From positions 248,001 through 312,000 of the forward strand of contig JAFIFP010000007.1 in the NCBI GenBank assembly GCA_020831965.1: DNA of 64,000 nt, written 5' to 3'. This DNA comes from Idiomarina sp. Its GTDB lineage: Bacteria > Pseudomonadota > Gammaproteobacteria > Enterobacterales > Alteromonadaceae. The notes under the pieces were generated by a model, which was given only the letters and a program-made list of their open reading frames with translations, was not told the origin of the DNA and did no database searches. The first letter of the stretch is position 1. Each line of letters begins with the position of its first letter. Positions 30,872 through 46,424 of this stretch are shown here, one piece after another. The position numbers were made by a program, and so were the translations under genes.

Positions 30872-31762
30872 ATGGTTCAAGAGAACCACGTGAACTATGG
30901 AAGTTCACAAGCTTTGCCAGACCTACCAGGCATGCTATTGCGTGCTATTCCCACGGTCGTGCGAAAAGGTGTGATAGAAGAGGGGTTTGAAGCCCTCTCT
31001 GCGTCTTTTCGCTGCCCCGCGATTGACCGCGCGCACTTGGCCGCCTATCGCCGCCAAATTCCGGGCTTTGTAAGCGATATTCCGCTAACCTATTTTTACT
31101 TGATTGCTCAGCGAGCCCACTTAGCATTAATGCTCGATGATCAATTTCCTTGGCCCATCCTCGGAATGGTACACGTTGCAAATAAAATGCTGCTGCACGA
31201 TGAAGTGCGTCTCGGAGAAACTTTCACTTTGCAGGTGAAAATTGAATTTCCCCCACGTGCCGCTACACGTAAGCGCGTACGTCCGGTCTATCATGTGGAT
31301 TTCTATCAAGGTAAGCGCCTCGTGCTCGAATGTGTCAGCGCCTATCAAGTCGGTGGTGGGACAAAAAACTCCGAAGGTCGCCGGCAACGCGCGGAAGTAC
31401 CGGAGCTCGCCGGTTGGTCGCGAACAGAACTCTGGCATTTAGATAGTCACTTAGGTCGGCGATACGCACGATTGTCAGGGGACTACAATCCTATTCATTT
31501 GCATCCATGGTTATCGCGTTGGTTTGGCTTTTCTCGACCAATTATTCATGGCATGTATTCTGTTGCCCGTGCACAAGCATCGCTAGAGGAAAGTCTGCAG
31601 GCCCCCGTGACTATGTTGGATATAGGATTTAGACGCCCGGTGGTACTACCAACGCAATTGCATTGCTGGTTTGAGAGAGACGCAGGCCGGCTACTGGTGT
31701 CTGATGTGAGAAATGAAAAAAGTTTTCTTGATGGTACATTTGAGATTGGAGAAACCCTGTGA
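30872..31762 (+). CDS. MaoC-like hotdog dehydratase-family protein
   Basis: The 296-residue protein carries in its C-terminal half the hydratase-2 motif SGDYNPIHLHP followed by FSRPIIHGMY, which holds the catalytic Asp and His of MaoC/R-specific enoyl-CoA hydratases. The N-terminal half looks like a second, degenerate hotdog unit, including VHVANKMLLHDEVRLGETFTL. Possible roles are hydration of enoyl-CoA or binding of acyl-CoA/ACP. The ribosome site GGGAGG lies 6 bases before ATG. Its stop overlaps the NfeD start (GTGA), so it is cotranscribed with the nfeD and SPFH genes. The natural substrate is unknown. Confidence 0.85.
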   Translation: MVQENHVNYGSSQALPDLPGMLLRAIPTVVRKGVIEEGFEALSASFRCPAIDRAHLAAYRRQIPGFVSDIPLTYFYLIAQRAHLALMLDDQFPWPILGMVHVANKMLLHDEVRLGETFTLQVKIEFPPRAATRKRVRPVYHVDFYQGKRLVLECVSAYQVGGGTKNSEGRRQRAEVPELAGWSRTELWHLDSHLGRRYARLSGDYNPIHLHPWLSRWFGFSRPIIHGMYSVARAQASLEESLQAPVTMLDIGFRRPVVLPTQLHCWFERDAGRLLVSDVRNEKSFLDGTFEIGETL

Positions 31763-32220
31763 CTTTAGCCTGGATTTGGATTTTTATTGGTATTTTACTC
31801 ATTTTGTCTGAGCTCTTGGCAACGAGTGTGATCGCTGTGTTTCTTGGAATCGGCGCCATTGTTGTGGGCCTTGCGTTGAAACTCGGACTTGTGGAAACCA
31901 CAGCTGCACAATACACATTATTCGGTATTGTCAGCTTGGCTTCATTGCTAGTTGCGAGAAAACAATTTAAACGTTGGTTCGTCGGTTTTACGAACGACGA
32001 AACCGAACAACAACAACGTTTTCAACAAGACCTTGGTGAGCGTGTGACAGTTCACACAGATTTTGTGAATGGCGCAGGCCGTGTCGTTTTGAATGGTGTG
32101 CAATGGGATGCCGTTTCAGAGGAAGGCCTAGTTTCTGGCGATGTAGCCTGGGTGGTCGAGAATGACGGTATCCGTTTGACAGTATCTCGCACTAAGCCCA
32201 TGTCGGAACAGGCATCATAG
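31759..32220 (+). CDS. NfeD family membrane protein
   Basis: The 153-residue protein has two to three N-terminal membrane helices (about residues 3-25, 28-48 and 52-68) and a C-terminal OB-fold domain (GERVTVHTDFVNGAGRVVL, then DAVSEEGLVSGDVAWVVE). This is the short NfeD form without a protease domain. Such proteins pair with SPFH/stomatin proteins in adjacent genes, as here. They are thought to help membrane-domain organisation or quality control. The start is GTG, overlapping the upstream stop by 3 bases. Confidence 0.9.
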   Translation: MTLAWIWIFIGILLILSELLATSVIAVFLGIGAIVVGLALKLGLVETTAAQYTLFGIVSLASLLVARKQFKRWFVGFTNDETEQQQRFQQDLGERVTVHTDFVNGAGRVVLNGVQWDAVSEEGLVSGDVAWVVENDGIRLTVSRTKPMSEQAS

Positions 32221-32276
32221 TTTTTAAGTCAATTGAGCTTTGAAAGCCAAAGCTCTCACGAGAACAGAGGTAACTA

Positions 32277-33212
32277 ATGGAAGATTTTAGTATCAGCAAC
32301 TTGTTAGCTATTGGTTTTGCAATTGCTGTGATTTTTACGATTTTCAAAACGGCGCGCATTGTGCCGCAACGAAGCAACTTCGTCATTGAGCGTTTAGGTA
32401 AGTATTCCCGAACGTTGGATTCGGGTTTCCACCTGTTAATTCCGTTCGTTGACAAGGTTGCTTACATTCAAACATTGAAAGAAGAAGTGATCGATGTAAC
32501 GCGCCAAGCCTGTGTAACGAAAGACAACATTCAGGTCGGTATTAATGGTGTGCTTTATATTCAAGTGATTGATGCTCATCGCGCGAGTTACGGTATTAAT
32601 GACTACCGCTATGCCGCATCACAGTTAGCGCAAACAACAATGCGTAGTGTCATTGGCCAAACTGACCTCGATAAAACTTTTGAAGAGCGTGCAAAGATCA
32701 ACGAAGCCGTGGTCGAAGCGCTTGATGAAGCTGCGAACCCATGGGGAATCAAGGTTCTTCGTTACGAGATTTCAGATATTGAACTGCCAGCAAGCATCAA
32801 AGATGCACTTGAACAGCAAATGCGTGCAGAGCGTGAACGTCGCGCAGCTATTGCAAAGTCGGAAGGTGAACGGCAAGCTATGATTAATGTCTCTGAAGGT
32901 CAGAAACAAGAAATCATTAACCTTTCAGAAGCTGAGAAACAGAAACAGATCAATGAGGCTGAAGGCCGAGCGAAAGAAATTGAGCTTATCGCTATTGCCA
33001 CAGCTGAAGGATTGAATAAGATAGCAGAAGCTATTAGTCAACCTGGTGGTCAGGACGCAGTTAACCTGCGGGTTGCAGAGCAGTACGTTAAAGAGTTTGG
33101 TAACCTTGCCAAAGTGAATAACAGCATGATTATTCCGGCTGAGTTAGCAAGCGTTGGCGGAGCTGTTGCAAGCATTACAGACATTTTGAGAAAAGTGACC
33201 CCGGACAAGTAG
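32277..33212 (+). CDS. qmcA: SPFH/Band 7 (stomatin-like, QmcA-type) membrane protein
   Basis: The 311-residue protein has one N-terminal membrane helix (about residues 8-24) and a full Band 7 domain (IVPQRSNFVIERLGKYSRTL, then AANPWGIKVLRYEISDIELP). A coiled-coil region rich in Ala, Glu and Arg follows (QQMRAERERRAAIAKSEGER). It resembles E. coli QmcA in length. SPFH proteins form large membrane-associated oligomeric cages and can modulate FtsH. It is next to its usual NfeD partner and ends 48 bases before the first Ser/Thr kinase gene, with no terminator in between. Confidence 0.92.
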   Translation: MEDFSISNLLAIGFAIAVIFTIFKTARIVPQRSNFVIERLGKYSRTLDSGFHLLIPFVDKVAYIQTLKEEVIDVTRQACVTKDNIQVGINGVLYIQVIDAHRASYGINDYRYAASQLAQTTMRSVIGQTDLDKTFEERAKINEAVVEALDEAANPWGIKVLRYEISDIELPASIKDALEQQMRAERERRAAIAKSEGERQAMINVSEGQKQEIINLSEAEKQKQINEAEGRAKEIELIAIATAEGLNKIAEAISQPGGQDAVNLRVAEQYVKEFGNLAKVNNSMIIPAELASVGGAVASITDILRKVTPDK

Positions 33213-33260: not shown

Positions 33261-36200
33261 ATGACACAACACAGAAAGGATGCTCTTGAAGCAGGAGCTT
33301 CGCTGCATTCATATCGAGTGATTGATGTTTTAGGTTCTGGCGCGTTTGGTATTACGTACCTCGCCGAACATAATTTATTGAACACGCGTCATGTCATAAA
33401 AGAATACCTGCCCGACAGTGCCTTAAGAGACCACGCAAGTAGTACTGTCACACCAAAGAGCTCCAGCGATACAGAAATGTTTCGCTGGGGTCTTAATAGC
33501 TTCTTTCAAGAAGCTCGCTTCTTACACGAACTTAACCATCCTAATATTGTAAAAGTCAGTGACCTGTTCGAGGCCAATGGTACTGCTTACTTTGTCATGC
33601 CTTATCTCGAAGGGATTACGCTACACGAATGGATTAAAAAACATAAATCACCTTCCCAAAGCCAGCTTTTAGATGTTTTTGTCCCCGTACTCGAGGGGTT
33701 GAAGCATATTCATCAAAAGAACTTACTCCACAGAGATATCAAACCTGAAAATATCTACATCACGGACAATGGCAATCCAGTGCTCATTGACTTTGGTGCA
33801 GCCCGCCTTGCTATCGGCGAGAAAAGTAGAGCGCTCACTCAAGTCTTAACGCCGCACTTCGCGCCATGGGAGCAGTATCGTTCGAAGGGGGAGTTTGGTC
33901 CTCCACTTGATTTCTACTCTTTAGCTGCCTGTTTGTATCAAGCCATCACGCAAGAGATGCCAGAAGAGGCACCGAATCGGCTTGAGGACGACCCGCTCAT
34001 TCCGCTCGCTCAACGCAGCGAATATGTGAAACGCTACAGTTCTGAATTTCTAGCTGCGGTGGATAAAGGTTTAAGTGTTCATGCAAAAGACCGCTTTCAT
34101 AACGCTTTCGAATTCCAACTGGCCCTCATGGAACATCCCGCGCCTGTTCAAGACGGCGCGGGACCAGCAAGTCTCGGTCCAGCAACAGCTCCGATAGCCC
34201 AAGGCCCAGCCTCGATGTCGCCTAGGCCCGCTTCCATGTCACCGGCGGCTCAGCAGTCTAAGAAGCCTATTTTTATTGGCGTCGGTGCATTAGTCGGCGT
34301 GCTAGCTATTGTCGGAGTGTTGGTATTTATGGGGGGGGAAGATGATATCGATGACCCTAGCGCCGGAACGCAAACAACAATTACAGAACAGGGTACTGAT
34401 GCTCCAGAAGATGTCACCGTTGATGCTGGAGGACGCGCAGAGCCTATTGATACCGCAGAAACTGAAAGTGAACCTGCAACTCCTTCTGACCAAGAGGAGA
34501 TTGTCGATCCGCGTCAAGCGACCGAGCGCGCGCAATGGCGCAGTGCACAGCAACAGAATACAGTCACAGCAGTGAATCAGTATTTAAGTAGCTGTGAACT
34601 ATGTGAGTATCGCCCAGATGCCGAATTGTTGGTGCGTGAACTGCGTGATGCGGAGGCCGCCGCAGCCGCTCAGCGACAGGCTCGTCAAGCCGATCAGCAA
34701 TTGTGGAATAGGGCACAGCAACAAGGCAGTGAGTCTGCTTATCAAGCCTACATTGATGGTTGCCAACTTTGTGAGCAGCGGGATCAGGCACGTCAGGCGC
34801 TGAATCGTTTGGTGGCCGCGCGCCGGGCAAGTGAGCAAGATCGGCGTTTATGGCAAGAAGCTCAGGAGCAAGATACAGAGCGTGCTTATGGGCGCTATCT
34901 CGAGCAGTGTACACAATGCGAACAACGTACAGCTGCGCAGCAGAACTTTAATCGTTTACGCAATGAACGTCTTGCACAAGAAGCAGCAATGGAGACGGAA
35001 GCAAGGGAGACTGCTGCTTGGGAACGTGCTGAGGAAAGTAATACTGAGGAAGCTTACATGGCATACCTTGAGGCCTGTGAGTTATGTGAGTACCGCGACG
35101 CTGCAGATGTTGCTATTGAGCGTCTTTCTCGCCTTGATGGGGAAGTTGTAGTGGCATCCTCGGGCGGTCACTTTGAACGGATCCAAGATGCGATTGATGC
35201 CGTCGTTGACGGTGCAACAATTTATATTGAGCCGGGCACATATAACGAAGCTCTGGTGGTGAATAAGCAGATATCCATTATCGGACTGGGCGAGCCGGGT
35301 AATGTGCGAGTTCGCAGTCGTGACCAATATGCGCTTCATGCGACAAGTAATGAACTGAGAGTTGAGAATATCTCATTTCAACAAGAATCCTCAAATGAGT
35401 CGGTCTTCGCGATTCTGATTGATCAAGGTGATGCTACGTTCGAGAATATTGAGGTAGTATCTCGAAGTGGCGCGGGCATCGCCGTGCGCGATGGCGCAAA
35501 CCCAACTGTTCGCAATAGCCGCATTCACAGTGGTGCGCAAGCAGGTATTTTTGTGCACGAGGGAGGCCGAGGATTATTCGAGCACAATAGAATTTATGGT
35601 AACCAGTTGGCGAATGTTGAAGTTCGTGATGCGAACACGAATCCAGTATTTCGTGAAAATCAGATTTATGGCGCGCAACAGAGTGGTGTGCATATTCACA
35701 ACTCAGCGCGTGGACAGTTTGAACTCAATGAGATCTATGAAAACCGCCAAGCTGGCATTTCAATTCGGTCCCAAGCAGATCCACTCATTAAGAATAATAT
35801 TGTACGCAATGGTCAAGAAGAAGGGATTCTAGTATACGACCGCGGCGCTGGGCGTATCGAAGAGAATAAAGTGTTTCAAAATGCGCGCGCCGGGATTGCT
35901 GTATACCAACAAGGGAACCCGCGTGTCGTGGCCAATACCATTCAGCGCGGGCGGGCAAGCGGTGTGTTTATCTACGATGGTGGACGCGGTCGCTACGAAA
36001 ACAACGATATTTCCGCCAATCGCCTATCTAACGTAATTGTTGCCGACAATTCTGAGCCTCAGTTTTATGAGAACCGAATATTTGATGGGAATGAAGTAGG
36101 TATCTTCATGTACGACGGCGGGCGAGGTATTTTTGAGCGTAATGAGATATGGGGAAATACCTTAGCTGGTGTCGAACTACGTACTGAAGCCCATGGTGTA

Positions 36201-36485
36201 TTCCGCGAAAATGTGATTCGCGATGGTAAAGAGTTTGGCGTGTTCGTCCACGAACAAGGCCGTGGGGAGTTTGTGAATAATGAAATCCGGGACAATGCAG
36301 CATCGGGTTTTGCGGTTGCCGCACAAGGTGAGCCCTTAGTACAAAATAACCGAATTGTAAGAAACCGCGAAGGTGTTGCTGCCTACGACAGAGCTCGTGG
36401 CACGTTCCGTGGTAATGAAGTTCGCCAGAATCGCGACCAAGACTGGGCAATTGCCCGTGGCGCGAATATAACACGACGTAATTAA
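33261..36485 (+). CDS. Transmembrane Ser/Thr kinase with C-x2-C repeats and beta-helix sensor (kinase A)
   Basis: The protein has 1074 residues. Residues 19-290 form a complete kinase domain: glycine loop GSGAFG (25-30), ATP lysine K47 in HVIKEYLPD, HRD at 157-159 with K161 and N164, DFG at 177-179, and an activation end TPHFAPWEQY. A Pro/Ser/Ala-rich linker leads to one membrane span (about 335-357). The acidic extracytoplasmic start is followed by four repeats of about 50 residues, each W..A-(S/T)..AY..YL-C-x2-C-R..A. Their cysteine pairs are at 445/448, 501/504, 550/553 and 606/609. From about 635 to the end is a right-handed beta-helix. It starts with a pectin-lyase-like cap (FERIQDAIDAV, IYIEPGTYNEAL), then about 14 coils of 23 residues. 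It should phosphorylate cytoplasmic FHA partners in response to an envelope signal. This role is inferred from domains and neighbours. Confidence 0.9.
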   Translation: MTQHRKDALEAGASLHSYRVIDVLGSGAFGITYLAEHNLLNTRHVIKEYLPDSALRDHASSTVTPKSSSDTEMFRWGLNSFFQEARFLHELNHPNIVKVSDLFEANGTAYFVMPYLEGITLHEWIKKHKSPSQSQLLDVFVPVLEGLKHIHQKNLLHRDIKPENIYITDNGNPVLIDFGAARLAIGEKSRALTQVLTPHFAPWEQYRSKGEFGPPLDFYSLAACLYQAITQEMPEEAPNRLEDDPLIPLAQRSEYVKRYSSEFLAAVDKGLSVHAKDRFHNAFEFQLALMEHPAPVQDGAGPASLGPATAPIAQGPASMSPRPASMSPAAQQSKKPIFIGVGALVGVLAIVGVLVFMGGEDDIDDPSAGTQTTITEQGTDAPEDVTVDAGGRAEPIDTAETESEPATPSDQEEIVDPRQATERAQWRSAQQQNTVTAVNQYLSSCELCEYRPDAELLVRELRDAEAAAAAQRQARQADQQLWNRAQQQGSESAYQAYIDGCQLCEQRDQARQALNRLVAARRASEQDRRLWQEAQEQDTERAYGRYLEQCTQCEQRTAAQQNFNRLRNERLAQEAAMETEARETAAWERAEESNTEEAYMAYLEACELCEYRDAADVAIERLSRLDGEVVVASSGGHFERIQDAIDAVVDGATIYIEPGTYNEALVVNKQISIIGLGEPGNVRVRSRDQYALHATSNELRVENISFQQESSNESVFAILIDQGDATFENIEVVSRSGAGIAVRDGANPTVRNSRIHSGAQAGIFVHEGGRGLFEHNRIYGNQLANVEVRDANTNPVFRENQIYGAQQSGVHIHNSARGQFELNEIYENRQAGISIRSQADPLIKNNIVRNGQEEGILVYDRGAGRIEENKVFQNARAGIAVYQQGNPRVVANTIQRGRASGVFIYDGGRGRYENNDISANRLSNVIVADNSEPQFYENRIFDGNEVGIFMYDGGRGIFERNEIWGNTLAGVELRTEAHGVFRENVIRDGKEFGVFVHEQGRGEFVNNEIRDNAASGFAVAAQGEPLVQNNRIVRNREGVAAYDRARGTFRGNEVRQNRDQDWAIARGANITRRN

Positions 36486-36534
36486 TACCGATTTGTGGTG
36501 TTCACTGTGGTAATCGGTCAGACAAGGAACTGAC

Positions 36535-37530
36535 ATGCAAGCCAACTTCTATGATGGCTCAATCATTGGCCAACGAGATGAACAACAAGATGATCGTACT
36601 AACGTGATTCTGGACGATGACTATCGTTTGTATGTCCTCGCCGATGGCATGGGTGGGCAACAAGCAGGTCAACTAGCAAGCAAAACCGTTTGTGGCGCGT
36701 TTCGTGAGTTTTTCAGAGCTAATCCAAGTATTTCGGCGCCAGAAGATGCACTTCTAAGTGCTCTCGAGTTTGCAAATCAAACGGTAGCCGATTTATTGAC
36801 GAGAGACCCGGATCTCGTTGGTATGGGAACTACTGCCATAGCAGTTCTTCTGCATGAACCCACACGCCGATTTAGTTTTATTAGTGTTGGTGATAGTCCT
36901 CTGTATGTTTTTGATGGAAATAATCTGCGCCGAATTAATGCAAATCATGCTTTCTTTGAGGATTTGAGAAAACTTATTGCGGCAGGAGAAATGACAGAAG
37001 AGGAAGCCGCAACACACCCTGACAGGCATGCGATTACAAGTGCAGTGATGGGGAAACCTATTGAGAAATATGATCTCCAATCTAGTGAACTCGCAGCTCA
37101 TGAAGTCTTAGTATTAGCGAGTGATGGCGTTCAAAGCTTGAGCGATGATGCGCAAGGAGAGATCGCGACTGTTCTGAAAGACAGTTATCCTGACTTGGAA
37201 GCCATGGTATCTCAGCTCCTGACCGCCGTGGAGGCTAAGGCATTATCCCATCAAGACAATACAACCATTCTAATCGCCAGCGCTGCGCCAGTGGAAATTC
37301 CCGCGCCTTCCACTGAGGTAGATTTAACCCCGAAAACACAAGCTGCTCCAAGAACTCAGCGTCATCAGCGAAACGAAGAGCCAGACACCCACAGAAAGCG
37401 CGGGCGATGGCTGTTCTGGCTGATTTTGCTCATTCTAATCCTCGTTGCAGTTTGGGCGGTTAACCCACAGTATCAAGCAGAGACCGCATTGAATTTAATC
37501 GACTTCTTTATTGCCGTGGACGTCAGCTAA
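36535..37530 (+). CDS. PP2C-type Ser/Thr phosphatase with C-terminal membrane anchor
   Basis: The 331-residue protein has the PP2C metal-binding motifs: N-terminal RDEQQDD (in place of the usual R-x-x-N-E-D), VLADGMGGQQAG (Asp and Gly ligands), GMGTTAIAVLL, FISVGDSPLYVF, VLASDGVQSL and QDNTTILIA. The catalytic domain spans residues 5-250. A linker with PKTQ and PRTQ motifs (T268, T274) leads to a single membrane helix at about 292-310 and a short extracytoplasmic end. It presumably reverses phosphorylation made by the adjacent kinases at the membrane. It lies 49 bases after kinase A and abuts the next phosphatase gene. Confidence 0.9.
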   Translation: MQANFYDGSIIGQRDEQQDDRTNVILDDDYRLYVLADGMGGQQAGQLASKTVCGAFREFFRANPSISAPEDALLSALEFANQTVADLLTRDPDLVGMGTTAIAVLLHEPTRRFSFISVGDSPLYVFDGNNLRRINANHAFFEDLRKLIAAGEMTEEEAATHPDRHAITSAVMGKPIEKYDLQSSELAAHEVLVLASDGVQSLSDDAQGEIATVLKDSYPDLEAMVSQLLTAVEAKALSHQDNTTILIASAAPVEIPAPSTEVDLTPKTQAAPRTQRHQRNEEPDTHRKRGRWLFWLILLILILVAVWAVNPQYQAETALNLIDFFIAVDVS

Positions 37531-38433
37531 ATGACTGATGCAAATCAGCTTTCTTATCGAAGCCGCGCTTATGAAGATGATAAACAGCGCGCAGAGTTAC
37601 TCGTTGAAGTGCCGAATTTAGGTACACTTTGTGTTGTAACCGATCCGGGTGGACGTACTGAGAACCAGGATGCGTGGGGCCTATTTGAAGCCACAGATGG
37701 AAGTACAGTGGTGTGTGTAGCTGATGGCTTAGGCGGTCATCGAGGTGGACGGTTTGCAGCACAATGTGCCATAGAAGGGGTGGGACAAGTTGCTGCAAGT
37801 AATGACTTTCAATTTGCGGATGCAGGGTGTTTAGCGCGTTTGTTCGACGCAGCTCAGCGTGCGATTCATCAGCAACAGCTAGCATCACCAGAGCTGAATT
37901 CAATGCGCTCGACCTTAGTCGTTGCAGTATTCAATGGAACACAGGTGAAGTGGGGCCATGTGGGAGACGTACGATTCTATCTTTTTCGCGATCAGGCCAT
38001 AGCGGTGCAAACAAAAGATCATAGTGTGCCGCAAATGTTAGCGGATACGGGCGATATTCAACCAGAGGAGGTTCGTCGCCATCCAGACCGTAGCCGTCTT
38101 CTGCAAGCGCTTGGTAAGCCCGATGGGCAGTTCAAAATGAGCGAAGGTGAAGCCTCTTTAGAGCTGAAATTTGGCGACAGTATTCTTTTGGCAACCGATG
38201 GCTTTTGGGAGTGGGTAGACGAAAATACGATGGTGACCGATCTGGCGCAAGGGGCGCAAAGTGGGCTATTTGAATTAGAAACCAAAGTGCGTCGCAACGC
38301 TGAGCCCTATGAAGACGAGTTTGATAATTTTACGGCCATGGTATTAATACTCGATGACATCCAAGTAGGAAAAGGCTTCTGGCAGAAGTCTCGATTTATG
38401 CCTAAGTTTTTAGGCGGGAAAGGCTCCCGTTAG
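37531..38433 (+). CDS. Soluble PP2C-type Ser/Thr phosphatase
   Basis: The 300-residue protein has an intact PP2C core: DPGGRTENQDAWG, VCVADGLGGHRGGRFAAQ, MRSTLVVAVFNG, WGHVGDVRFYLF, DHSVPQML, LLATDGFWEWVD and DNFTAMVLIL. It lacks a membrane segment, unlike its neighbour, and the final 20 residues are basic. The start codon directly follows the stop of the first phosphatase with no gap, so the two are translationally linked. Two different phosphatases next to two kinases suggest separate membrane-bound and cytoplasmic dephosphorylation. Confidence 0.9.
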   Translation: MTDANQLSYRSRAYEDDKQRAELLVEVPNLGTLCVVTDPGGRTENQDAWGLFEATDGSTVVCVADGLGGHRGGRFAAQCAIEGVGQVAASNDFQFADAGCLARLFDAAQRAIHQQQLASPELNSMRSTLVVAVFNGTQVKWGHVGDVRFYLFRDQAIAVQTKDHSVPQMLADTGDIQPEEVRRHPDRSRLLQALGKPDGQFKMSEGEASLELKFGDSILLATDGFWEWVDENTMVTDLAQGAQSGLFELETKVRRNAEPYEDEFDNFTAMVLILDDIQVGKGFWQKSRFMPKFLGGKGSR

Positions 38434-38477
38434 ACCCACTATAATAACAATTAAAGCAGTTCAGGAGATCTCAACCT

Positions 38478-39302
38478 ATGCCTATGATTATGTGCGCAGC
38501 GGGCAAACACTTTTACAACCCAGATATTCACGGTGAATGCCCCTCGTGTAAGGAGGATGGCGTCGCCAGTGGCGATAACGATCGTTCTAGTGAGGCCGTA
38601 TCAAATAACCCGGCAGTAAAAACCGATGTAGTGCATGCAGCAAAAACCACAACAGTAGGCGCTACTACCGCGAAAACAACAGCCCTCAATGAAACTTCAA
38701 CGGCGAAGACGACCGTGCAATCAAGTGCCGAGTTTTCCGCAGCAACCAAACCACCTGCTGCAAAAGAGTCCAATGCGGCCTCGGGTAAGCAAGCAGAACA
38801 GAAGCCTGAGCACAAAGTAGAGTCGCAGCAGGCAGCTGCAAACAACCTGAAAACTCGTGTGGTGATAGGGCAAAAGCAAACCGGCACAAATAACAATGAA
38901 GCGACCGTGGAAACCCCGTCTCACAATACAGTAGGGGGAGAGAAGGGCGTTGCCGAGTTTCCTGTTGTCGGTTGGTTGGTCGTGATGTCAGGCACCGGAA
39001 GTGGCACGGACTTTCGTTTGATTCAAGGGGAGAACCGCATTGGTCGCGGTGAAGGAATGGAAATCTGCCTAGATTTTGGGCCATTAAGTGATCAAACCGT
39101 TAGCCGCGAAGCTCATGCAATTGTGGTCTACGATAACAATGCGAATGAGTTCTTCATCGAGCGTGGAAACAGTCGAAACTTACCTATGTTGAATGGGCAA
39201 ACCATTCGACGAGACCAAAATCTTAATTCAGGGGACACCATACAGCTCGGTGCAACTGAGTTGAGGTTTGTCGCGTTTTGCCAAGGCGCTTTCTCCTGGT
39301 AA
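38478..39302 (+). CDS. FHA-domain protein with N-terminal zinc-ribbon-like motif and Thr-rich linker
   Basis: The 274-residue protein has a C/H cluster at the N-terminus (C6, H11, C21, C24) of the kind that can hold one zinc. A 140-residue low-complexity linker follows, with three AKTT motifs and KTRVV at T126. A C-terminal FHA domain (about 165-268) has NRIGRGEGMEICLD, the phospho-Thr contacts TVSREAHA and RGNSRNLPMLNG. It has no enzyme domain and is probably a phosphopeptide-binding adaptor whose linker may be phosphorylated by the neighbouring kinases. It lies 44 bases after the phosphatase pair and 32 bases before kinase B. Confidence 0.85.
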   Translation: MPMIMCAAGKHFYNPDIHGECPSCKEDGVASGDNDRSSEAVSNNPAVKTDVVHAAKTTTVGATTAKTTALNETSTAKTTVQSSAEFSAATKPPAAKESNAASGKQAEQKPEHKVESQQAAANNLKTRVVIGQKQTGTNNNEATVETPSHNTVGGEKGVAEFPVVGWLVVMSGTGSGTDFRLIQGENRIGRGEGMEICLDFGPLSDQTVSREAHAIVVYDNNANEFFIERGNSRNLPMLNGQTIRRDQNLNSGDTIQLGATELRFVAFCQGAFSW

Positions 39303-39334
39303 GAACTAAATAACTCGAAAGTTATAGGATTACT

Positions 39335-42300
39335 ATGCAGTCACAAGCACGGATCGATGCATTAGCCGAAGGTACTATTCTCCACGCCTATCGAATCAAG
39401 CAAGAGCTCGGTTCGGGTGCGTTCGGAATTACCTACCTCGCCGAACATACGTTGCTAAATACGCTGCATGTAATTAAGGAATATTTGCCAGAAACTGCGC
39501 TGCGTGACCATGCAAGCAGCACTGTCGCGCCGAAAAGTCACAAAGAAGAGGATATTTTTAACTGGGGAATGAGTAGTTTCTTCAATGAAGCGCGAATCCT
39601 CAATCAGCTCAGCCATCCTAATATTGTCAAAGTAAGCGATTTGTTTGAAGCCAATGGCACGGCTTATTTCGTGATGCCTTATCTCAAAGGTATTACTTTG
39701 CATGATTGGATTAAGCAACATCCCAACCCGAATCAACAACAGCTAGAACAATTATTTATCCCGTTACTTGAGGGATTAGCTTACATTCACGAGCGAAACC
39801 TACTTCACCGCGACATAAAGCCTGAAAATATCTATATCACTGAAAACGGTACGCCCGTATTAATTGACTTTGGAGCTGCCCGCTTAGCCATTGGTAATAA
39901 GAGTAAGGCACTGACGCAGGTCTTAACACCGCATTTTGCGCCATGGGAACAGTACCGGTCCAAAGGCGATTTCACTCCGGCACTCGATTTGTATAGCCTT
40001 GCGGGCTGCATGTACCAAGCGATTGCGCAGACACTTCCTGAAGAAGCGCCCAATAGGCTAGAGCACGATCCGCAACCGCGACTTGCTGGAAGTTCGCATG
40101 AAGGACGTTTCGCTAGACATTTTCTCGAGTCTATTGATGTTGGCCTCAATGTTTGGGCGAAAGATCGTTTTCAAACGGCGAGTGAATTCCAACACGCTAT
40201 GACCGGAGGATCATATACAGCAACGACAGTCCATCCTTCTATAGCCTCATCGAGCACACCCGAACAAGCAACGAGTCAACGCGATAACGATCGAAAGCGA
40301 CCGATACTCCTCGCAAGCATTGGTATTGCAGTCGTAGCAGTTTTTGGTGCTGTTTATTTACTTCTTCCAAGCGAAGATCCTGAGACACGAATGGCGCGGC
40401 TAGACACCGAGTTATGGGAGCAAGCAGAGTCGGTTGGCACCGAACAAAGCTATCAATCCTACCTAGACGACTGCAATCTTTGTGCGCGGCAAGATGATGC
40501 CGACGAAGCTTTAGAGTCGTTACGACTAGCCCGCGTCGCAGAAGAAGAAGCAGCCGCAGAGCGTCGAGCGGAAGAGGAAGCATCACAACGTGCAGCTGAA
40601 GAAGCAGAGGCACAGGCTGAAGCAGATAGGATTGCACGTGAAGAGGCAGAAGCACGAGCTACCGCAGAGCGTGAACGCAGAGCGCAAGCTGAACAACAAC
40701 GCCACAGAACAGCGGACAACAACTTATGGAATGCAGCTCGAGAGACGAATAGTGTTGAGAGCTATCGCAACTACCTCACGCAATGTCAACTTTGTGACAA
40801 CCGTGCCGACGCGCAACAGCGTATTCAATCTATCCAAGCGCAACGTCAGCAAGCCGAAGAACAAGCACGGCGGGAAGAACAACGTCGCCAAGCCTTAGCG
40901 GCCGACAGTGCATTGTGGGATGAAGTGGTTGCTGAAGATACTGAAAGTGCTTATCGACGCTATTTAGCAGACTGTCGTGAATGTGCTGATGGGCCGGCCG
41001 CTCAAGAGGAAATTCGGCAACGAGAGGAAGCGCGAGCAAATGCCGCAGCGGATGCCGAACTTTGGACGGCTACCCAAGACGATGGCAGCGAAGAAGCATG
41101 GGCCAATTATGTCGCTAATTGCATTACCTGCGAGCAACGTGAAGCTGCTGAGCAACAACTTGCAGACATCGAAGCCAACAGAGAACTGAGAGCTGCAGAC
41201 CGTGCGCTTTGGGAAACCGCAGTCTCAATGGCCTCGATTGAAGGCTACAGTAATTACTTAGACGCGTGTCAGTATTGTGCGGAGCGTGAAGTCGCCGAGC
41301 GTCGACGCAGACAGTTCGTCGGGCAACGTGATGGCTTTGTTGTTGCTCCGAGTAATGGAGACTTTAGCTCCATTCAAGAAGCGATTGAATTTGCTTTACG
41401 AGATACAGAGATCAAGATTCGGCCCGGTCAGTATAACGAAAGTATTCGATTGCGGGATCGTGTGAATCTTGTCGGTGACGGTGACCGTGATGCCATTATT
41501 ATTGAAAGTACTGAAGGTGACGGTCTTTACTTCAATGGGGAAGTCGGCAAAGTAGAAAATCTTACTATTCGCGTTCGAACCTCAGGACAAGTGAGCTATG
41601 GCGTTTTTATTGATGGTGGAGCCTTAGAGCTGGTAGGGAACGACATTAGTTCTAGGACTGGCTCTGTGGTAGCTGTGAACAACGCAGCGAATCCGAAGAT
41701 TTCCAATAATGTTTTATCTGGAAGTCGCCAGAGTGGCATCGTGATCTATAACGAAAGCACTGGCACCTATGAAGGCAATGAAATTCGTGACAATGAAGAC
41801 TTTGGTATTCGACTCGAAACAGCAACAAGCCCATCGTTTCGTAATAATACCATCGAGAATAACCAACGGGGTGGCGTCATCATTCTCGATCGTGGCGAAG
41901 GTGTCTTCGAATCGAATCGTTTCCTTAAGAATGGTTTAGCAAATATATTGATTACTGCTGACGGTAATCCTACCTTTATCGACAATGATATTGCGCAAGG
42001 GCTCAGTAATGGGGTGTTTATCTTTGAGGGAGGTCTCGGGGTTTTCCGCAATAATCGTATTGTTAAAAATGAAGACTTTGGTATTCGCTTAGAAAACCAA
42101 GTCACTCCAGAATTCTTGGGAAATGAGATCGCAGAGAATCAACGCGGAGGGGTTCTGGTGATGGATGGTGCGCTTGGGGAATTTAGAGGAAACTCAATCA
42201 CACGCAATCAAAGTGCAGGCGTGCTAGTCACAGCGCAAGGAAACCCAACCTTTATCGACAATCAGATTTTTGCTAACGAACAACATGGCGTACATGTATT

Positions 42301-42955
42301 TGACCAAGGCGAAGGGCGTTACGAAGATAACGATATTTATCAAAATCCACTCTATGGTTTTGTGAGTCGTAATAATGCAAACCCGTCATTGATCAATAAT
42401 AGAATTTACGAAAACCGTGAAGGCGTGGGCTTTTTGAATGAAGGAGGAGGCCAGTTGCGGGACAACGATATTCGCAACAATGAGCTCTACGGTGTCATCG
42501 TTCGTGACGATTCGAACCCGCGCTTAGTCACAAATCGTATTCGTAATAATCAGCAGGGTGGTATTGCTATCTTTGACGAGGCGCGTGGCGAGTTTACCGG
42601 CAATGAAATAACAAATAATGCCTTCGCTGGTGTACTCGTCGCTACAGGCGGTAACCCTATTTTCGATAACAATCGCATCAGTCAAAGCGAAGAAAGCGGG
42701 TTGTTCATTCGAGACAATGCGAGCGGTACCTATACTAATAATGAGATTCACGACAATGGGTTTTCCGGCATCGCTGTGCGCAGTGGCGCAAGCCCCACAG
42801 TTCGGCGGAACAAGATCTTCATGAACCGTGAGGGTATCCGTATTTACGATGCAGCGGCAGGTACCTATGAAGAGAACGAAATCACAGGAAATATAAGCTC
42901 GGCGTGGGATATAACTGAAGATTCAACGCCCGTAAGGCGAGATAACCGGGATTAA
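39335..42955 (+). CDS. Transmembrane Ser/Thr kinase with C-x2-C repeats and beta-helix sensor (kinase B)
   Basis: This 1206-residue paralog of kinase A has an intact kinase domain (GSGAFG, K48, HRD 158-160, DFG 178-180, TPHFAPWEQY) very similar to that of kinase A. A membrane span lies at about 322-344. The outer part has five repeats with cysteine pairs at 380/383, 484/487, 547/550, 596/599 and 645/648. The first and second repeats are separated by a charged Ala/Glu/Arg-rich coiled coil (about 398-460). The beta-helix begins near 675 (FSSIQEAIEFA, IRPGQYNESI) and continues to the end with about 19 coils of 23 residues. It is longer and more diverged than the kinase domain, so the two kinases probably detect different ligands. 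It belongs to the same probable operon. Confidence 0.9.
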   Translation: MQSQARIDALAEGTILHAYRIKQELGSGAFGITYLAEHTLLNTLHVIKEYLPETALRDHASSTVAPKSHKEEDIFNWGMSSFFNEARILNQLSHPNIVKVSDLFEANGTAYFVMPYLKGITLHDWIKQHPNPNQQQLEQLFIPLLEGLAYIHERNLLHRDIKPENIYITENGTPVLIDFGAARLAIGNKSKALTQVLTPHFAPWEQYRSKGDFTPALDLYSLAGCMYQAIAQTLPEEAPNRLEHDPQPRLAGSSHEGRFARHFLESIDVGLNVWAKDRFQTASEFQHAMTGGSYTATTVHPSIASSSTPEQATSQRDNDRKRPILLASIGIAVVAVFGAVYLLLPSEDPETRMARLDTELWEQAESVGTEQSYQSYLDDCNLCARQDDADEALESLRLARVAEEEAAAERRAEEEASQRAAEEAEAQAEADRIAREEAEARATAERERRAQAEQQRHRTADNNLWNAARETNSVESYRNYLTQCQLCDNRADAQQRIQSIQAQRQQAEEQARREEQRRQALAADSALWDEVVAEDTESAYRRYLADCRECADGPAAQEEIRQREEARANAAADAELWTATQDDGSEEAWANYVANCITCEQREAAEQQLADIEANRELRAADRALWETAVSMASIEGYSNYLDACQYCAEREVAERRRRQFVGQRDGFVVAPSNGDFSSIQEAIEFALRDTEIKIRPGQYNESIRLRDRVNLVGDGDRDAIIIESTEGDGLYFNGEVGKVENLTIRVRTSGQVSYGVFIDGGALELVGNDISSRTGSVVAVNNAANPKISNNVLSGSRQSGIVIYNESTGTYEGNEIRDNEDFGIRLETATSPSFRNNTIENNQRGGVIILDRGEGVFESNRFLKNGLANILITADGNPTFIDNDIAQGLSNGVFIFEGGLGVFRNNRIVKNEDFGIRLENQVTPEFLGNEIAENQRGGVLVMDGALGEFRGNSITRNQSAGVLVTAQGNPTFIDNQIFANEQHGVHVFDQGEGRYEDNDIYQNPLYGFVSRNNANPSLINNRIYENREGVGFLNEGGGQLRDNDIRNNELYGVIVRDDSNPRLVTNRIRNNQQGGIAIFDEARGEFTGNEITNNAFAGVLVATGGNPIFDNNRISQSEESGLFIRDNASGTYTNNEIHDNGFSGIAVRSGASPTVRRNKIFMNREGIRIYDAAAGTYEENEITGNISSAWDITEDSTPVRRDNRD

Positions 42956-43018
42956 GCAGTACCGGCAGCGAGCATTCGAGATGCTCGTTATATTTAAATA
43001 TTCACGATAAGAAGGAAT

Positions 43019-45826
43019 ATGCTTGTGCTGTTAATCTCAGGAAATTCGATATCTGGCGATGTGACACTGACTGAAGGCACGACAAGTGTGGGCCGTGGTC
43101 CTCAGAATAAGCTCATTTTAACGGCTGAGTTTATCTCGGGAACACATGCACAGTTTGTGAAACAGGGTAACGAGGTGACCATTGAGGACTTAGGCTCGAC
43201 TAACGGGACCTACTTGAATGGTCACAAAATTCCAGTAAAGGAGCCAGTGCGTGTAGTAAATGGGATGCAGATTGCGTTTGGGGATGTGGAGAAGGCAAGT
43301 TTCACCGTTGAGATTAACCTGACCGAAACAGACGCATTGAAAACTCAAGTTGCCTCAACACCTGAGCAGGACCCGCGAACTCAAGTGAGCGCGCAAGCAG
43401 TATCAGCAGATGACCATAGTACACGAGTGTTTCGGCCGAAAACGGAATTCTCAATTGGTCGAGCCGTTGGGAACGATATCGCCATAGATTCGCCGGTAGT
43501 GTCCTCCGTGCATCTAAAAATCAAGCGAGCGACCGACGGTTCATGGCATGCGCACGACAATAAAAGTACGAATGGAACCTATCTAAACTCTCCAAATAAT
43601 CGAATGAATGAGTTCCGCATTGAGCCGGGGCAGACCATTTATTTAGGCAGCTATAAATTATTGTCTGACCGTATTCTAAGTATTCTCAAGAACGATAAAG
43701 TTGAGAAAGCAGGGCGGATTAAGGTTTCAAAAGATACAGTGATCATTGGACGCAACCCAGATGCCGACGTTGCCGTTTCACATCCAAGCGTCTCTTGGCG
43801 ACATGCAAAGCTCACGAAGTCAGGAGACCATTACATTGTCGAAGACCTAGGCTCCACCAATGGAACCTACGTGAATGGTGCGCGAATCACGCGGCCTACG
43901 GAATTGAAGAAGAATGATGAAATTCTGCTCGGGATCTATGCCTTCACTTTAGATTTTGACAGTGATCGAGTGACGTCATTGGTGAAGAAGACAACTCTTG
44001 ATGGGTTAACGCTCGAAGCGAAAGGAATCACTAAAATCGTGGGTAAAGATGTCGCATTGCTGGACGATATCAGCCTCACGGTGAATCCGGGTGAGTTCGT
44101 TGGACTCATGGGCTTGTCAGGAGCAGGTAAAACAACCTTCCTAAAGACTCTAAATGGTTATGATAAGCCGACCCGGGGGTCTTCATATATCAATGGTATG
44201 GACATCTATAAGCATTACCATCTCTTCAAATCCATGATTGGCTATGTCCCCCAAGACGATATTGTTCATCCAGAGCTGACGGTCTACGAAGCACTCGACT
44301 ACTATGCGAAGCTGCGGTTGCCATCGGATATGAAGAAGGAAGAAATTAAGCGTCGTATCAAAGATACATTAGCTAAACTCGGGCTGGCAGGTGTGGAGAA
44401 TACCTTGATCGGTTCGCCTGAAACTGAGAAAGGCATTAGTGGCGGGCAACGCAAGCGCGTCAACCTTGCGATGGAATTACTGGCTGATCCTAAGATCATT
44501 TTTCTAGATGAGCCCACCTCAGGCTTATCTGCTGTTGATACGAAAATGGTGATGGAGTTATTACGGCAACTTGCCGACGAAGGGAAAACCATCATTATTA
44601 CCATTCATCAACCCAGCTTCGATAACTACAAGATTATGGATAGCCAGATTATTCTGTCATACGGGAAGCTCACGTATTATGGGCCAACCTATCCGAATTC
44701 AATTCAATTCTTTAACCCAGGCAACGACAATCCGAATCTTTTAAACAATCCAGATAACGCCCTCATTGGCCTGAACGACGGTGAAATGAAAGCAGGGGAA
44801 GACAAGCTCGATCCGAGGAAGGATAGAAACCGCAAAGGCTTGTATTGGAAACAGAAGTTCCTGCAAGCACCCGAATATCAAGATTACGTGGTGAAACGTC
44901 AAGGGCAGGCTAAGAACCTTGAGGGTAGTACGTCAAAATCAGCTTCGGGCTTCAAACAGCTTTTTATACTGGCAGGGCGTTTCATTCGGGTAAAACTGAA
45001 AGACCGGGTGAACACCACAATTTTGCTTGCTCAGGCGCCTTTGATTGCCTTAATGGTAAGTTTGCTGTTCTCTGAAGAAGCTTATTTAGGCACGGTGTCC
45101 CGTCCTGGCATGGCATTTACCTTAATGTTTGTACTTGCGATTGCAGCCGTCTGGTTTGGAAACACGAACGCATCAAGGGAAATCGTCGCAGAAAAAGCGA
45201 TTTATGAACGTGAGCGGATGGTCGGGATCAAGATTCTTCCATACGTGTTCTCTAAATTCATTGTTCTTGCACCTCTCTGTCTGTTTCAAAGTGCATTACT
45301 CGTGGGGATTACCTATGTATTAACGCCTTTTGAGCTAGGTTTTGGCGATGATATCTGGTTTATTGGACTACTAGTGTTCCTTACATCACTGGCTGGCTTG
45401 AGTATTGGCTTATGGGTATCTGCTTTCTCGAAGTCTCAATCTCAAGCGCTTGCACTCATTCCATTGGTGTTGCTGCCAATGATTATTTTTGGGGGCGGTA
45501 TGATGACCGTCAAGCAAATGCATGAGAGCGATGGCAAAGTCGCCTACGTGATAGCCCAAGCTATTCCGACTCGTTGGGCACTGGAAGAAATGACAGCGAT
45601 ATATGACGCCAACACGGATCATCGGGCCTTCTGTGAGGAACGTATAGATGAAGCCCTGCATGAATCTGAAGCAATGAGCAGCTGCTTACAGTTGCGTAAC
45701 TTAACTGAGCGGAATTATGGTGATGCCGCGACCAATCGAAAAACCGTATTGTCCGTGTTAGGCGGCTTTATTGTGATTCCACTATTATTCGTTATCTTCA
45801 TTCTGAGACGTAGAGACAATGCTTAA
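43019..45826 (+). CDS. ABC transporter with three FHA domains, ATPase and membrane domain (ABCG/ABC-2 type)
   Basis: The protein has 935 residues. Three FHA domains lie at about 20-100, 140-215 and 235-315, each with the R-S/T-N-G-T core (GSTNGTYLNG, KSTNGTYLN, GSTNGTYVNG). The linker between the first two carries T-[QR]-V motifs at T109, T121 and T135. The ATPase has Walker A GLSGAGKTT (364-372), signature ISGGQRKR and Walker B IIFLDEP followed by TSGLSAVD. The last 260 residues hold about six membrane helices of ABC-2/ABCG type. AAGGAA sits only 1-2 bases before the ATG at 43019 but 7 bases before an in-frame GTG at 43025, so the real start may be the GTG. It is probably an exporter or lipid/polymer transporter gated by phosphopeptide binding. 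The substrate is unknown. Confidence 0.9.
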   Translation: MLVLLISGNSISGDVTLTEGTTSVGRGPQNKLILTAEFISGTHAQFVKQGNEVTIEDLGSTNGTYLNGHKIPVKEPVRVVNGMQIAFGDVEKASFTVEINLTETDALKTQVASTPEQDPRTQVSAQAVSADDHSTRVFRPKTEFSIGRAVGNDIAIDSPVVSSVHLKIKRATDGSWHAHDNKSTNGTYLNSPNNRMNEFRIEPGQTIYLGSYKLLSDRILSILKNDKVEKAGRIKVSKDTVIIGRNPDADVAVSHPSVSWRHAKLTKSGDHYIVEDLGSTNGTYVNGARITRPTELKKNDEILLGIYAFTLDFDSDRVTSLVKKTTLDGLTLEAKGITKIVGKDVALLDDISLTVNPGEFVGLMGLSGAGKTTFLKTLNGYDKPTRGSSYINGMDIYKHYHLFKSMIGYVPQDDIVHPELTVYEALDYYAKLRLPSDMKKEEIKRRIKDTLAKLGLAGVENTLIGSPETEKGISGGQRKRVNLAMELLADPKIIFLDEPTSGLSAVDTKMVMELLRQLADEGKTIIITIHQPSFDNYKIMDSQIILSYGKLTYYGPTYPNSIQFFNPGNDNPNLLNNPDNALIGLNDGEMKAGEDKLDPRKDRNRKGLYWKQKFLQAPEYQDYVVKRQGQAKNLEGSTSKSASGFKQLFILAGRFIRVKLKDRVNTTILLAQAPLIALMVSLLFSEEAYLGTVSRPGMAFTLMFVLAIAAVWFGNTNASREIVAEKAIYERERMVGIKILPYVFSKFIVLAPLCLFQSALLVGITYVLTPFELGFGDDIWFIGLLVFLTSLAGLSIGLWVSAFSKSQSQALALIPLVLLPMIIFGGGMMTVKQMHESDGKVAYVIAQAIPTRWALEEMTAIYDANTDHRAFCEERIDEALHESEAMSSCLQLRNLTERNYGDAATNRKTVLSVLGGFIVIPLLFVIFILRRRDNA

Positions 45827-46346
45827 AACTATGGCAAGACTTATGAACCGAACACGCCTTTATCAGCTTATTGCGCTAGGCGTGTTCGTCACATTAACAT
45901 CAAGCGGCTGTTCGCTATTACGGCAAAACATCGTTGATAACGTGCACTATCGGCTGCAGTCAGTGGATGTTCAGGTTGGGATGCGTCAGGGGACAAGCTT
46001 GTTGCCAAATCTTGTGGCCGATGTAAACGCGGCACTGGAAATTCGCAATGATAGTTTGATTAATTTGTTTATTGAGCGCATTAACTACGACATTTACCTA
46101 GGAGACACTTTGGTTGCTTCGGGTGTTACTGGTGAAGGGGTTCAGCTTGATTCCGGCGGCGATAGTCAGCTGATTAATTTTAATATTCAATTGAGCGCTG
46201 CGTCGTTATTGAACGAAGGCATTACCTTAAGCCGCACGCGCGCTTTACCTCCAGTGCGTGTGGACGGAAGTAGTTCAATTGCCACAAGGTTTGGTGTTCA
46301 TGAGGTGCCATTCAGTGTGCGTTATGAACGTCCGCAAATTGACTAA
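45819..46346 (+). CDS. LEA14-like (LEA type 2) lipoprotein
   Basis: The 175-residue protein has a signal peptide with lipobox L-T-S-S-G-C (cysteine about residue 31 if the first ATG is used). The mature domain resembles LEA type 2/water-stress hypersensitive domains: NLVADVNAALEIRNDSLINLFIERINYDIYLG is split here around the first strands. These are immunoglobulin-like folds. The first ATG overlaps the transporter gene by 8 bases; ATGs at 45831 or 45843 are possible. It is the last gene of the kinase locus, before a terminator, and may serve as the periplasmic partner of the ABC transporter. Confidence 0.8.
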   Translation: MLKTMARLMNRTRLYQLIALGVFVTLTSSGCSLLRQNIVDNVHYRLQSVDVQVGMRQGTSLLPNLVADVNAALEIRNDSLINLFIERINYDIYLGDTLVASGVTGEGVQLDSGGDSQLINFNIQLSAASLLNEGITLSRTRALPPVRVDGSSSIATRFGVHEVPFSVRYERPQID

Positions 46347-46389
46347 ACATTTAATGGCCGGCGATAAGCTCTAATGACGGAAAGTAGGG

Positions 46390-46424
46390 AGAACGAGTGT
46401 GCGATTTGGCATTCGTTCTTTTAT
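46390..46424 (+). terminator. Intrinsic terminator closing the kinase-phosphatase-FHA locus
   Basis: AGAACGAGTG pairs with CATTCGTTCT (10 pairs, one G-T) around a 10-base loop and is followed by TTTTA. It is the first terminator-like hairpin I see downstream of the porin terminator at 30761, which suggests one transcription unit from 30872, or from an internal promoter. Confidence 0.75.

Follow-up and report, generated by a model that had tools for sequence, protein, structure and literature searches.

A narrowly distributed gene cassette combining beta-helix receptor kinases, PP2C phosphatases and FHA proteins with an ABC exporter in Idiomarina

Gene content of the locus

A stretch of 64,000 nucleotides from Idiomarina sp. 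(GCA_020831965.1, contig JAFIFP010000007.1, positions 248,001 to 312,000; hereafter the window) was analysed for a cassette of seven genes, which encode two Ser/Thr kinases with beta-helices, two PP2C phosphatases, an FHA adaptor, an ABC exporter with three FHA domains and a LEA_2 lipoprotein. Domains were assigned with Pfam and agreed, for the first six proteins, with an earlier reading of the nucleotide sequence (the original prediction); transmembrane segments were called by hydropathy scan only.

Kinase 1 (P0001, 1074 aa; 33261..36485) and kinase 2 (P0005, 1206 aa; 39335..42955) each join a Pkinase domain to one transmembrane-like segment (residues 337-355 in P0001, 324-342 in P0005), a series of CxxC repeats and a beta-helix (Beta_helix/NosD); the repeats, already noticed in the original prediction, number four in P0001 and five in P0005. 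Both phosphatases belong to PP2C_2. The membrane PP2C (P0002, 331 aa; 36535..37530) has a C-terminal transmembrane-like segment (292-310) and a linker with the motif P-x-T-[EQ]-V, and in the soluble PP2C (P0003, 300 aa; 37531..38433) the scan returned no such segment. The adaptor (P0004, 274 aa; 38478..39302) consists of an N-terminus, read as zinc-ribbon-like from a C..GKHFY..CPSC pattern found in 4/4 orthologues, a Thr-rich linker with LKTRV and one FHA domain; a PDB search with this protein gave a single weak FHA match. On the chain of the exporter (P0006, 935 aa; 43019..45826), FHA1, a linker, FHA2, FHA3, ABC_tran and ABC2_membrane follow one another, with six transmembrane-like segments. 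The last gene encodes the LEA_2 lipoprotein (P0007, 175 aa; 45819..46346), a separable companion.

All seven genes lie on the + strand, as predicted. According to the open reading frame (ORF) list, the gaps from P0001 to P0006 are 49, 0, 44, 32 and 63 bases, and the frames of P0006 and P0007 overlap by 8 bases, so that the range of 0 to 63 bases given earlier for all gaps had to be corrected for the last pair. The closing terminator of the original prediction was recovered as a hairpin at 46387..46422 (+ strand; -17.4 kcal/mol, z -4.80), the 3' side of which ends in CUUUU; none of 200 shuffles was equally good, and the hairpin was not among the outputs of a simple terminator scanner. Upstream, NfeD and SPFH/Band_7 genes (31759..33212, + strand) run in the same direction and are present also at sites without the cassette; they are a possible transcript start. 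Since the SPFH gene ends 48 bases before the start of kinase 1 on the same strand, the start of the operon is not established.

The genome comprises 2.67 Mb and is 97.8% complete. It holds four FHA matches, every one within the cassette. Of its three kinase matches, two exceed the Pfam cut-off and belong to the cassette; the third stays below the cut-off and lies elsewhere. A loop of kinase, phosphatase, reader and output is thus packed into one 13 kb locus, with no FHA domain or above-cut-off Ser/Thr kinase found in the rest of the genome; together with the conserved gene order given below, this bears out the earlier proposal of one linked circuit.

Conservation, distribution and history

Conservation of gene order among relatives had been proposed as a check, and the order of the seven genes was found to be identical in 4/4 carriers (the window, G008, L033 and L034) rather than conserved nowhere. 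For the predicted seven-gene operon, the order stood; its start, as described above, is not established, and the seventh gene proved separable. Catalytic motifs (kinase, PP2C, ATPase) and FHA phosphopeptide-binding motifs were intact in 4/4 orthologue sets, and a Ser/Thr kinase gene adjoins the exporter gene in the window and in the other carriers. The most conserved protein of the cassette is the exporter (ATPase 93% identity across carriers, exporter transmembrane domain 86%); kinase domains reached 83 and 88%, and the outer domains of the kinases about 50%.

The cassette is real and conserved, yet narrowly distributed. A full-length FHA-ABC protein was found in 2/58 relatives and in 2/395 family genomes (own genome included in both counts), corresponding to 1/52 genera, and a scan of named genomes detected full-length beta-helix kinases in Aliidiomarina sp. 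B3213 and in A. celeris, which suggests that the window is Aliidiomarina-like. The insertion site was the same throughout: dehydratase, NfeD and SPFH genes precede the cassette in 4/4 carriers, and MipA-like and Lon-like genes follow in all three carriers readable that far, the L033 stretch ending earlier. A downstream gene in the window, for a LonB/LonC-like AAA protease (48167-50167), is kept near the site in most relatives read.

An SPFH gene was found in 14/17 genus genomes at the search threshold. Twelve cassette-less sites of the genus were read, the sites of three genomes without an SPFH match being left out, and at ten of these 12 none of the seven cassette genes was present. The downstream neighbours were kept at 8/10 of the fully empty sites (not at L087 and L088). 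At the two remaining sites, in G013 and G014, LEA_2 stands directly after SPFH and the six signalling genes are absent. The stop of SPFH overlaps the start of LEA_2 there (L081:2821-4226 for G014, L082:9486-10912 for G013). LEA_2 was detected in 4/17 genus genomes (two carriers, G013 and G014), always at the same site. The seven genes as an indivisible unit were consequently rejected, since LEA_2 stands alone in G013 and G014; because it was kept without the six others in these two sister species, the core is the six signalling genes and LEA_2 a separable companion.

A tree of four flank proteins separated the four carriers and the two LEA_2-only species from the ten without either, with a branch support of 97/98, and the carriers alone did not form one clade. 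A single gain followed by a single loss of the six genes is the simplest reading of this history. At two cassette-less sites (L084:6892-9803 and L089:3864-6787), tandem related proteins of 478-483 aa follow SPFH.

Receptor kinases and related cassettes

In 8/8 orthologous kinases, the cysteines outside the kinase domain are exactly those of the CxxC repeats, a count that would fit disulfide formation in an oxidising periplasm. The outer part of kinase 1, modelled from six sequences, was predicted to form helices whose turns carry CxxC, followed by a long beta-helix (mean predicted local distance difference test score 92.5, predicted template modelling score 0.68). The repeat spacing of the beta-helix is 23 and 46 residues. 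For the CxxC region Pfam gave zf-FLZ only, below cut-off, and a regular-expression scan of further kinase ORFs (taken from L035-L042, L045-L073 and L093-L109, some truncated at the end of the fetched stretch) for such repeats gave one unrelated case.

Among the matches listed, the nearest solved relatives of the beta-helix by both sequence and fold are alginate C5 epimerases, followed by further polysaccharide enzymes and by tail proteins of phages. The catalytic motif of alginate C5 epimerases is DPH. An epimerase-type enzyme was considered for the beta-helix and rejected: the nearest folds are epimerases, but DPH is absent in 8/8 kinases, and the looser D-x-H-[DE] occurs once in 2/8. Sensing of a polysaccharide or glycan by the beta-helix is plausible as a reasoned guess from the fold kinship, and the occurrence of beta-helix-kinase fusions in at least two distant lineages suggests a sensor role.

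In a quick kinase tree, supported by the Shimodaira-Hasegawa-like approximate likelihood ratio test (SH-aLRT) only, the split between kinases 1 and 2 precedes the split of the carriers (kinase 2 clade 99, kinase 1 clade only 54). Both fall into one clade (support 100) with kinases from metagenome-assembled genomes (MAGs) of Neisseriaceae and of one deltaproteobacterium, apart from the other kinases sampled. Related kinases were found in 110/369 class genomes, at most two frames having been scored per genome on fragmented contigs; in the matches listed from genomes other than the own one, the kinase alignment goes no further than query residue 581 and stops short of the beta-helix. An exporter match at 1e-45 was obtained in 5/369 class genomes, own genome included. 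G397 encodes an FHA-ABC protein with no kinase in the stretch read, and in the ABC frame of G230, which does have kinases, an FHA domain was not found. Kinase and FHA transporter occurring apart in most genomes, which had been named as evidence against a functional link, was thus what was seen for the wider kinase family and not for the kinases of this cassette.

Parts of the cassette have been combined more than once. The nearest kinase domains, in the Neisseriaceae and deltaproteobacterial MAGs (L035-L038), are accompanied by PP2C and, where this could be read (L035 and L036), by an FHA adaptor; unlike the cassette, L035-L038 have neither an ABC protein nor a Pfam beta-helix, and the FHA-rich protein of L035 and L036 carries a trypsin-like domain. 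This domain is fused to three FHA domains in L035 (3853-6027) and to two in L036 (11558-13354), in each case beside kinase and PP2C genes. FHA-ABC exporters beside a kinase were found in G305 (L090) and G148 (L091), the former also with PP2C; these loci differ from the cassette by the lack of a beta-helix and the presence of a VWA protein. Their kinases were rejected as near kin, being very distant in the quick tree. In L090:3063-10692 and L091:8833-15617, from two families, the genes for exporter, kinase, VWA, 205-aa and 245-aa proteins stand in the same relative order; the 245-aa protein is an M48 peptidase by Pfam in L090, and PP2C was found only in L090. In L041 (4817-7315), a fusion of an IKEYLP-type kinase with an FGE-sulfatase domain lies beside FHA and VWA genes.

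Beta-helix kinases are not unique to this cassette. On the Deinococcus wulumuqiensis plasmid pDrdA (NZ_CP031159.1), a gene whose product combines a kinase domain with a beta-helix lies beside kinase, FHA and PP2C genes. This cluster differs in that it lacks an ABC exporter and includes VWA, and in that its beta-helix kinase carries a zinc ribbon and SH3; the kinase domain is 36% identical and falls outside the clade of the cassette kinases. The genes for VWA, kinase, FHA, PP2C and the zinc-ribbon/kinase/SH3/beta-helix protein stand in a row (L110:3028-11889) near pprA and lexA, and the annotation of the fusion protein mentions the beta-helix alone. A plasmid search with P0006 gave five cyanobacterial records, about 31% identical when compared by sequence identity. 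A kinase, a PP2C and a VWA partner make up the triad of the TerY-P type; a VWA domain is absent from the seven cassette proteins by Pfam.

T-x-V islands, the proposed switch and its alternatives

Except for short T-x-V islands, the linkers of P0004, P0006 and P0002 show little conservation (mean identity 26-33%). LKTRV in the P0004 linker and P-x-T-[EQ]-V in the P0002 linker were found in 4/4 orthologues, and [KR]-T-Q-V and T-[RK]-V-F in the FHA1-FHA2 linker of P0006 in 3/4. Across five linkers and four genomes, 30 T-x-V were counted vs 8.8 expected (maximum of 17 in 2000 shuffles), and V at +2 (z 7.3) and K at -1 (z 7.2) topped all position-residue pairs with at least 5 cases. The linkers of the window alone gave 9 T-x-V vs 2.82 expected (p 0.0004) and 5 [KR]-T-x-V vs 0.31 expected (0 of 20000 shuffles), and 40 other ORFs of the window gave 64 vs 58.4 expected, a ratio of 1.10. 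The activation loops read LTQVLTP in 8/8 kinases, and AKTVVMG precedes the FHA domain of the Eikenella adaptor. The islands are predicted to hold candidate phosphothreonines read by FHA domains. Self-binding FHA tails with hydrophobic +2/+3 positions are known from GarA, OdhI and DgcB (PMC6733907), which share with the cassette a threonine followed by hydrophobic +2/+3 residues upstream of an FHA domain; their FHA domains regulate enzymes or a cyclase, whereas in the cassette exporter and adaptor would be concerned, by predicted phosphorylation.

With slightly better than even confidence, the cassette is read as a self-contained phosphothreonine switch, in which the kinases, the PP2C phosphatases and the FHA adaptor control the exporter P0006. 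According to this scheme, the receptor kinases would extend into the periplasm a helical stalk with CxxC turns that carries a long beta-helix, the domains being observed and the topology and stalk predicted. The beta-helices would probably read an envelope or surface glycan, as their fold kinship suggests, and ligand binding would activate the kinase domains. These would phosphorylate the T-x-V threonines present in the disordered linkers of P0006 (between FHA1 and FHA2), P0004 and P0002; the FHA domains of exporter and adaptor would bind the marks within or between molecules, and the binding may cluster or reshape the exporter and so alter its activity, as reported for Rv1747/PknF. Both the membrane-bound and the soluble PP2C would reset the switch. 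The exporter would probably carry an envelope lipid or glycan precursor, and the LEA_2 lipoprotein might perhaps assist.

Several observations weigh against this scheme. The T-x-V test was post hoc, with linker borders set by eye and orthologues that are not independent of one another. Taken by themselves, the P0002 linkers do not reach significance (p 0.16-0.36), the P0004 linker alone is borderline in 3/4 genomes, P0006 of L034 is without K-T-Q-V, and the juxtamembrane linkers of the kinases hold one motif in eight. T-x-V was not seen in the linker of the L090 FHA-ABC exporter, and T-x-[VIL] before TP is common in the activation loops of other kinases too. As to the proposed ligand, the query TM-scores of the 50 structural matches listed are low (0.13 to 0.51), and beta-helices resemble one another widely.

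The best functional precedent, likened from published descriptions, is the pair PknF-Rv1747 of Mycobacterium tuberculosis, a kinase with an FHA-ABC exporter. In the parts of these reports that were available, Rv1747 shares an operon with PknF and is its substrate, the interaction requiring the FHA domains (PMC3908365), and the N-terminal part of Rv1747 condenses more readily when phosphorylated, an effect that a phosphatase reverses (PMC9312465). In common with the cassette, a kinase gene neighbours the gene for an FHA-ABC exporter made as one chain, in which FHA domains are separated by a disordered linker (PMC3908365, PMC9312465). As described in these parts, the mycobacterial operon differs in having one kinase, two FHA domains and neither an adaptor nor a PP2C gene; the cassette encodes two kinases, both with a beta-helix, together with two PP2C phosphatases and an FHA adaptor, and its exporter bears three FHA domains. 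PASTA receptor kinases, in the part of PMC6213207 that was available, likewise have a cytoplasmic kinase, one transmembrane segment, an outer sensor and a PP2C gene neighbour; the cassette kinases carry a beta-helix on a CxxC stalk instead, PASTA repeats being absent by Pfam and NCBIfam PknB_PASTA_kin giving 116.6 and 106.9 bits vs a cut-off of 450.

The original prediction knew of no described system of this kind. For the exact set this stood, as no published description was found in the available parts of the literature searched, and in such part of the main text of a 2005 survey (PMC1262709) the words 'helix', 'NosD' and 'pectate' do not occur; it did not stand for the general scheme, given the precedents of PknF-Rv1747 and the Deinococcus cluster. 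New here are beta-helix receptors in a kinase-FHA-ABC scheme and T-x-V islands in the exporter, the adaptor and one phosphatase. The named candidate phosphothreonines allow the control of an ABC exporter by FHA domains to be tested beyond the mycobacteria.

The FHA output differs by cassette, being an ABC exporter in the window and a trypsin-like protein in Neisseriaceae and a deltaproteobacterium. More tentatively, a core of kinase, PP2C and FHA adaptor might be refitted by swapping the sensor and the FHA output; here envelope glycans would be sensed by two beta-helix receptors, which would make the exporter cluster upon phosphorylation via repeated K-T-x-V tags. Export in a Gram-negative bacterium would then be gated by glycans and controlled in a condensate-like manner. 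This is put forward as a possibility rather than an expectation.

The recurrence of the kinase/PP2C/FHA core with another FHA output (trypsin-like domain, L035 and L036) also agrees with an alternative in which the main output is something other than the exporter: the kinases would regulate envelope or growth functions broadly, and the FHA-ABC protein would serve as one target or as a phospho-dependent scaffold; PASTA kinases act broadly on envelope functions, according to the available part of PMC6213207. It is considered rather unlikely, the exporter being the most conserved protein and part of the cassette in 4/4 carriers, with no FHA domain elsewhere in the genome.

Less probable still is that the cassette belongs to the NfeD-SPFH system and controls membrane organisation, with LEA_2 and the exporter moving lipids. 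The position of NfeD-SPFH directly upstream in 4/4 carriers and the overlap of LEA_2 with SPFH in G013 and G014 would suit such a role, but NfeD-SPFH stands without the cassette at 12/12 cassette-less genus sites read.

An anti-phage defence module with protein kinases, suggested by matches of the kinase domains to the mad6 and PD-T4-6 profiles and by the patchy distribution, was rejected as very improbable: the resemblance is confined to the kinase domain (MADS6 124.5 and 111.2 bits vs an NCBIfam equivalog cut-off of 460), and the cassette keeps to one chromosomal site, its history being most simply read as a single gain and a single loss.

Practically no weight is left for the threonine-phosphorylation pathway of type VI secretion, to which kinase, PP2C and FHA proteins belong in the available part of the literature and to which the original prediction had tied such gene sets, because this 97.8% complete genome, like that of G008, lacks the sheath family PF05943. 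A kinase of this family lies at most 20 kb from a sheath gene on one contig in 4 class genomes, and PF05943 was found in 24 of the 110 kinase-bearing class genomes vs 20.9 expected (369 genomes, counted by hand); within the genus, the family is present in 1/17 genomes (G010), which is cassette-less.

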